From Sedimenticola sp. (GTDB lineage Bacteria; Pseudomonadota; Gammaproteobacteria; Chromatiales; Chromatiaceae), in assembly GCA_027008705.1 (NCBI GenBank), contig JALVEB010000045.1, positions 1 through 40,153 of the forward strand: DNA of 40,153 nucleotides. Reading direction: 5' to 3'. Below, in pieces: positions 35,504 through 35,626 of the stretch. The translations under genes and the position numbers were made by a program. Within the stretch, counting starts at the first letter, position 1; each line of letters opens with the position of its first letter. The notes below the pieces were generated by a model. It saw nothing but the letters and a program-made list of their open reading frames with translations. It ran no database searches and was not told the DNA's origin.

Positions 35504-35536
35504 AAAAAAAAGGCGCGACGGGGGGGATGTCGCGCC
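35504..35536 (-). terminator. Rho-independent terminator on the minus strand
   Basis: An 8-bp perfect GC-rich stem with a 9-base loop is followed, only on the minus strand, by eight T residues. On the plus strand the run is A-rich and precedes the stem, so it does not end queA mRNA. No annotated minus-strand gene lies upstream of it, which is why it points to the small RNA. Confidence 0.8.
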
Positions 35537-35591
35537 AAAGTTTCCACCAAAGGAGGATGGAGGAGGTTGTACCGAACGAGTTGTTCAGTAC
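35504..35591 (-). ncRNA. Candidate small RNA with CCUCC motifs, antisense to the queA-tgt gap
   Basis: Read on the minus strand: a 9-bp stem with one G-U pair, GTACTGAAC / GTTCGGTAC (35591-35569), beginning at the predicted +1; a single-stranded tract CCTCCTCCATCCTCC, complementary to Shine-Dalgarno sequences; a short linker; then the terminator stem GGCGCGAC/GTCGCGCC with loop ATCCCCCCC and eight T. The promoter at 35598-35626 fits the start. C-rich anti-SD loops resemble CCUCC-type regulatory RNAs known in alphaproteobacteria and Xanthomonas sX13. Hence a trans-acting translation regulator is a reasonable guess. It is also antisense to the tgt leader. Confidence 0.6.
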
Positions 35592-35609
35592 ATGGCTATC
35601 TTCTAATAT
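35581..35609 (+). promoter_or_regulatory. Candidate promoter for tgt
   Basis: TTGTTC, 17-bp spacer, TAATAT. The start would be near 35616, leaving about 54 bases of leader before tgt. It overlaps the small RNA promoter on the opposite strand, so the two may compete. Confidence 0.45.
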
Positions 35610-35626
35610 AGTGATTCGAATGTCAA
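35598..35626 (-). promoter_or_regulatory. Candidate promoter for the small RNA
   Basis: On the minus strand, a perfect TTGACA (35626-35621), a 17-base spacer and GAAGAT (35603-35598), preceded by an A-rich tract that may act as an UP element. The -10 matches only three of six bases, including the key second A and last T. Predicted start near 35591. Confidence 0.5.

Follow-up and report, generated by a model that had tools for sequence, protein, structure and literature searches.

An anti-Shine-Dalgarno small RNA gene antisense to the queA-tgt gap of a Sedimenticola-like gammaproteobacterium: a probable sister branch of the RF02278 RNAs

What does the minus strand encode in the gap between queA and tgt? 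In the 40,153-nucleotide stretch of DNA analysed here (the window), queA (34469..35494, plus strand; PF02547, E 3e-128) and tgt (35670..36788, plus strand; PF01702, E 4e-159) stand in a plus-strand row with yajC and secD. The best relatives of the tgt product come from Sedimenticola and other Chromatiales genomes, which places the host as a gammaproteobacterium near Sedimenticola. An initial annotation placed in the gap, on the opposite strand to both genes, a candidate C-rich small RNA (sRNA) carrying an anti-Shine-Dalgarno (anti-SD) tract, which would be new if it matched no covariance model. Two features lie further upstream in the window: a tRNA-Leu (CAA) gene at 34199-34285, just before queA and on the opposite strand, and, at 30780-33251 on the minus strand, an 823-residue protein with a PKD domain, to which Pfam assigns nothing else and whose hydrophobic segments near the C-terminus are probably membrane-spanning.

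The sRNA gene, of ~90 nt, occupies about 35593..35504 of the minus strand, with its promoter at 35626..35598. The -35 box is TTGACA (35626-35621), separated by a 17-bp spacer from a -10-like GAAGAT (35603-35598), whose surroundings TATATTAGAAGAT are conserved; box and spacing are as first described, and are conserved in relatives. GAAGAT is a weak match to TATAAT (3 of 6 positions), which is why a consensus promoter scan passed over this promoter, and the weak -10 box counts against the sRNA reading. Transcription is predicted to start at ~35593-35591, at the foot of stem-loop 1; the start had been placed there already, at the base of a 9-bp hairpin, but the hairpin has 10 pairs (35592-35568). 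Stem-loop 1, variable in sequence, is followed by the C-rich linker ACCUCCUCC (35567-35559), near-invariant in the alignment, which constitutes anti-SD site 1. The 3' part of this linker doubles as the 5' arm of stem-loop 2 (35564-35543), whose loop UCCUCCUU (35557-35550) constitutes anti-SD site 2. Linker and loop resemble the anti-SD tail of 16S rRNA. The C-rich tract noticed at the outset, CCTCCTCCATCCTCC, lies at 35566-35552, and the core of the window copy, CCUCCUCCAUCCUCCUUUGGUGGA, lies between stem-loop 1 and the terminator. The intrinsic terminator (35536-35504) has an 8-pair GC-rich stem and a 9-nt C-rich loop (35536-35512) followed by eight T (35511-35504; eight U in the RNA), just as anticipated. 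That loop exceeds the length allowed by the terminator scan, which therefore did not report it. At the level of sequence, the features of the anti-SD sRNA class are thus present: CCUCC in linker and loop, an independent promoter and a Rho-independent terminator.

An 88-nt stretch of the minus strand folds at -35.4 kcal/mol, against -14.7 +/- 2.7 kcal/mol for dinucleotide shuffles (z -7.57; none of 200 shuffles as good). It is conceivable that there is no RNA gene here at all, and that the conserved element is a DNA-level or plus-strand feature such as a repeat or a GGA-rich, CsrA-binding tgt leader: GGAGGATGGAGGAGG on the plus strand does resemble repeated GGA motifs. The fold of the plus strand is far less distinctive, however (z -1.79), promoter, terminator orientation and T-run all indicate the minus strand, and conservation starts exactly at the minus-strand -35 box. 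A plus-strand or DNA-level explanation is accordingly very hard to credit.

Comparison with relatives makes the limits of the gene visible. When the window is aligned with a congener, 114 of 129 positions are identical in a block that opens at the -35 box and closes shortly after the T-run, and outside it nothing aligns; a block that matches the gene limits excludes chance origin of the sRNA elements. BLASTN with 146 bases retrieves good copies from most relatives, and more than 30 copies, when compared, share a common plan. A conserved promoter precedes a stem-loop 1 that differs between copies in both length and sequence; then come the core CTCCATCCTCCTTTGGTGG, which is the same in nearly every copy, an AU-rich spacer, and a terminator of the GCGCGGC type. 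Among 78 copies, TTGACA is exact in 58 and matched at 5 or more of 6 positions in 70; the spacer is 17 bp in 55, and the consensus ATATTAGAAAAT lies downstream.

A covariance model, R1, was built on 11 copies that resemble one another in stem-loop 1, since a MAFFT alignment had misplaced that hairpin. The window copy scores 89.7 bits (E 1.2e-18 in its own genome), being itself among the 11 seed sequences. R1 finds matches in 35 of 55 relatives; within the order it detects the sRNA in 130 of 147 genomes, and in an even sample of the class in 76 of 274, usually with one to three copies per genome. A second model, R2, run on 299 genomes from across the phylum, matches 9, every one of them in the same class. 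Standard pairs fill 92.3% of the pair cells of 92 distinct sequences, and 22 of the 23 pairs have changed on both sides. All 9 modelled pairs of stem-loop 1 are among these (88.7% of cells paired), as are all 8 of the terminator (98.9%), and stem-loop 2 adopts the same fold in nearly all of 33 copies. None of 500 shuffles came near these values, and structures slid along the alignment drop to 35-52%; the alignment, having been fitted to the model, favours structure, but the margin is large and the individual folds agree. Hairpins, terminator and CCUCC core are thus conserved in relatives, and promoter conservation, covariation, core invariance and wide distribution together lend strong sequence-based support to the independently transcribed C-rich anti-SD sRNA that the initial annotation had put forward. 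That the sRNA gene is real can be stated with high confidence.

Does it act on its neighbours? The order queA-sRNA-tgt recurs at 17-18 loci, with the sRNA always antisense, and in the window the terminator ends ~10 nt from the queA stop codon. Both facts would suit a cis-acting antisense RNA, or a transcriptional-interference element, directed at the queA-tgt operon and fully complementary to the intercistronic part of its read-through mRNA. A common position can also be simple inheritance, however, and copies with the same core occur elsewhere. At ten other loci the sRNA is followed on its own strand by the gene for ribosomal protein L13 (rplM; confirmed by Pfam for one representative); at five more an S9-like reading frame, judged by eye, lies 420-665 nt downstream; the remaining copies have other neighbours. 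The host genome has exactly two confident copies, and the second is away from queA. Furthermore, what stays invariant in the RNA is the C-rich core, not sequence adjoining either gene. A cis-acting role is therefore quite improbable, and copies away from queA-tgt favour action in trans, with position unlikely to be function. "Antisense to the queA-tgt gap" accordingly describes the window copy correctly but not the family, whose paralogs lie elsewhere; the queA-tgt position is old but dispensable for the sRNA family.

Several individual copies merit description. The second copy in the host genome (G000:C79:31825-31919; L148:2526-2620) has its own TTGACA promoter, a different stem-loop 1 sequence and no clear adjoining gene. 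Tandem pairs, in an arrangement like that of Neisseria NmsRA/NmsRB, occur at L206:1370-1438 and 1501-1566 and at G331:C27:1113-1184 and 1262-1336. The Tgt nearest to that of the window comes from Sedimenticola isolate 356-308, which has no sRNA upstream of tgt (L031:200-480), where the region looks rich in inverted repeats; the queA-tgt copy can therefore be lost. Three weaker matches (L151:2502-2602, L153:2458-2528 and L158:2536-2627) share the upstream motif GGCAGTATCG...AGTAG, then a C-rich linker and a terminator; L154, L161 and L162 have TCCTCCTC in place of that motif, followed by another hairpin. These six loci may represent additional kinds of sRNA that have this anti-SD linker in common. 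A mobile origin was considered and rejected, as a search for similar sequence in plasmids, phages, E. coli genomes and viral contigs gave no match.

Is the RNA new? At gathering cut-offs, Rfam finds only a tRNA in the whole window. A targeted scan nevertheless aligns RF02278 (Betaproteobacteria toxic sRNA) to the same core and terminator at 32.3 bits (E 5e-5), below its cut-off of 50. The alignment takes in model positions 1-64 of 64 and the two-hairpin architecture (a CU-rich hairpin plus the terminator), with which the fold of the 33 copies agrees. The expectation of novelty thus holds in that no Rfam family reaches its cut-off, and is tempered by this sub-threshold match. Of the 55 relatives, 30 also give sub-threshold RF02278 matches, mostly at the places found by R1; none of the 55 reaches 50 bits, and two of the 274 class genomes exceed it. 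On those two over-cut-off copies (G378, G262) R1 scores 23-27 bits, while intermediates in G210, G289, G301 and other genomes reach 40-60 bits with R1 and 44-49 with RF02278, although for RNAs this short convergence could produce such scores. The pattern suggests a single family with two ends, a described beta end and a gamma end; a literature search of open-licence papers found no description of the latter. Because it scores below the RF02278 cut-off, the window sRNA is placed beside that family and not in it: the best reading of the sequences is a gammaproteobacterial sister branch of RF02278-type anti-SD sRNAs, a new branch of a described kind.

The likeness to RF02278 and to the Burkholderia double-hairpin RNAs ncS03, ncS05, ncS27 and ncS62 resides in a CUCCUCCA...CUCC...UGGUGGA hairpin and CU-rich unpaired stretches ahead of a terminator, and in the several scattered copies per genome. 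The gamma RNA differs in its extra conserved 5' stem-loop, its shorter and different hairpin loop UCCUCCUU, its GCGCGGC-type terminator and the conserved promoter directly in front. (Burkholderia ncS35 was dropped as a family member, because its authors report no Rfam match.) A paper of 2020 called the toxic sRNAs exclusive to Betaproteobacteria (PMC7011215). Bordetella pertussis S17, which acts with Hfq, has been described as an RF02278 homologue, and its product S17S represses BP2158 by pairing with the ribosome-binding site, as compensatory mutations established (PMC11722255). Like the gamma RNA, S17S has two anti-SD sites (in S17S at the 5' end and in the first loop) within a short, highly conserved stretch ahead of a terminator; linker ACCUCCUCC corresponds to its Site 1. 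S17S is an RNase E product of a 190-nt precursor, however, whereas the start of the gamma RNA seems to lie immediately in front of stem-loop 1, and of the two only S17 has known targets.

The order of elements in Neisseria NmsRA/NmsRB (RF02877; also RcoF, NgncR_162/163) is the same: stem-loop 1, a linker with alpha-SD1 (to which ACCUCCUCC again corresponds), alpha-SD2 in the loop of stem-loop 2, and a terminator. Mutation of either alpha-SD region of NmsR abolishes regulation (PMC5362039). RF02877 scores 22.4 bits in the window (E 0.16) against a cut-off of 52, so that there is no membership at the sequence level; the NmsRs are also tandem in Neisseria, and an sdh-type target finds no support for the window sRNA. 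The alphaproteobacterial CCUCCUCCC sRNAs (CcsR1, RF02791; ar14, RF02344) share C-rich anti-SD motifs and a Rho-independent terminator, but score 17-18 bits where the cut-offs are 65 and 59, which is a functional analogy and no evidence of homology.

Which mRNAs might such an RNA reach? In the host genome, matches of at least 8 nt to the core occur in 28 of 1204 predicted start regions and 11 of 1204 segments inside genes, a 2.5-fold excess. The reversed core, used as a control, matched 32 start regions at the same length, and the excess thus reveals no specificity beyond general anti-SD complementarity. Target prediction across 1.42 Mb of the host genome gave an energy ranking dominated by GC-rich pairing. 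Its candidates (an ABC-exporter-like protein with GGAGGAUGGA, a leucine-aminopeptidase-like protein and cytochrome b) are left unclaimed because the reversed core did equally well. Among the sdhC leaders of ~20 relatives there is no conserved complementarity to the sRNA; sdhC accordingly finds no support as a conserved target, and by this comparison of leaders the TCA-cycle role of NmsR does not transfer to the window sRNA as far as sdhC is concerned.

A core that does no better than its reverse at start regions would suit a general translation brake: an RNA that slows growth and competes for Shine-Dalgarno sequences at large, having no dedicated targets. Some copies adjoin the ribosomal protein gene rplM. 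RF02278 members, moreover, are named for toxicity in E. coli, according to PMC4603805 and PMC5688073, and overexpression of ncS27, which like bdhR1 is a member of that family, slows growth, just as its silencing speeds it (PMC5688073). Against a brake, E. coli grew almost as fast when S17S was overexpressed, and 92 genes go up when S17, the level of which depends on Hfq, is absent (PMC11722255). Invariance in the gamma RNA also extends well past the CCUCC tracts (UUUGGUGG), though this stretch is partly the 3' arm of stem-loop 2. On balance a general brake is improbable, and regulation of particular mRNAs is preferred.

The reading that we favour, with a probability of roughly 80%, is that of a trans-acting ~90-nt sRNA, expressed from its own promoter, that represses several mRNAs by anti-SD pairing, probably with Hfq, and that forms a sister branch of RF02278. 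Gene structure, conservation, covariation and multiple copies are direct observations, as is the hfq gene, which is present in the host genome (G000:C96) and in 15 of 18 genomes searched; the steps of the mechanism build on them conditionally. Transcription from the promoter would yield the ~90-nt RNA, in which linker ACCUCCUCC and the stem-loop 2 loop UCCUCCUU would mimic the 16S rRNA anti-SD tail. Hfq would probably help, binding at the U-rich 3' end; the sRNA would pair with the ribosome-binding sites of several mRNAs and, once paired, would block initiation of translation. The parallels with NmsR, S17S and ncS27, together with the Hfq gene, lead us to infer that several mRNAs are repressed where their translation starts.

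sRNAs are usually thought to be conserved among close relatives only. The window sRNA has a near-invariant 19-nt core throughout a whole order and recurs across the class, and yet it lies below every Rfam cut-off in the window. With it, a group already known in Bordetella, Burkholderia and possibly Neisseria comes to include purple sulfur bacteria and symbiotic sulfur oxidisers. A broader proposal is tentative and somewhat doubtful: that sibling sRNAs mimicking the 16S anti-SD tail form a single ancestral family across much of the Gammaproteobacteria (in the GTDB sense, Betaproteobacteria included), near-universal in Chromatiales, with the rplM-rpsI site linked to ribosome supply and growth-rate control. 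If this were true, a core regulator would have been missed because its scores fall below Rfam cut-offs. The R1 and R2 models allow the family to be annotated and its ancestral targets to be sought comparatively.
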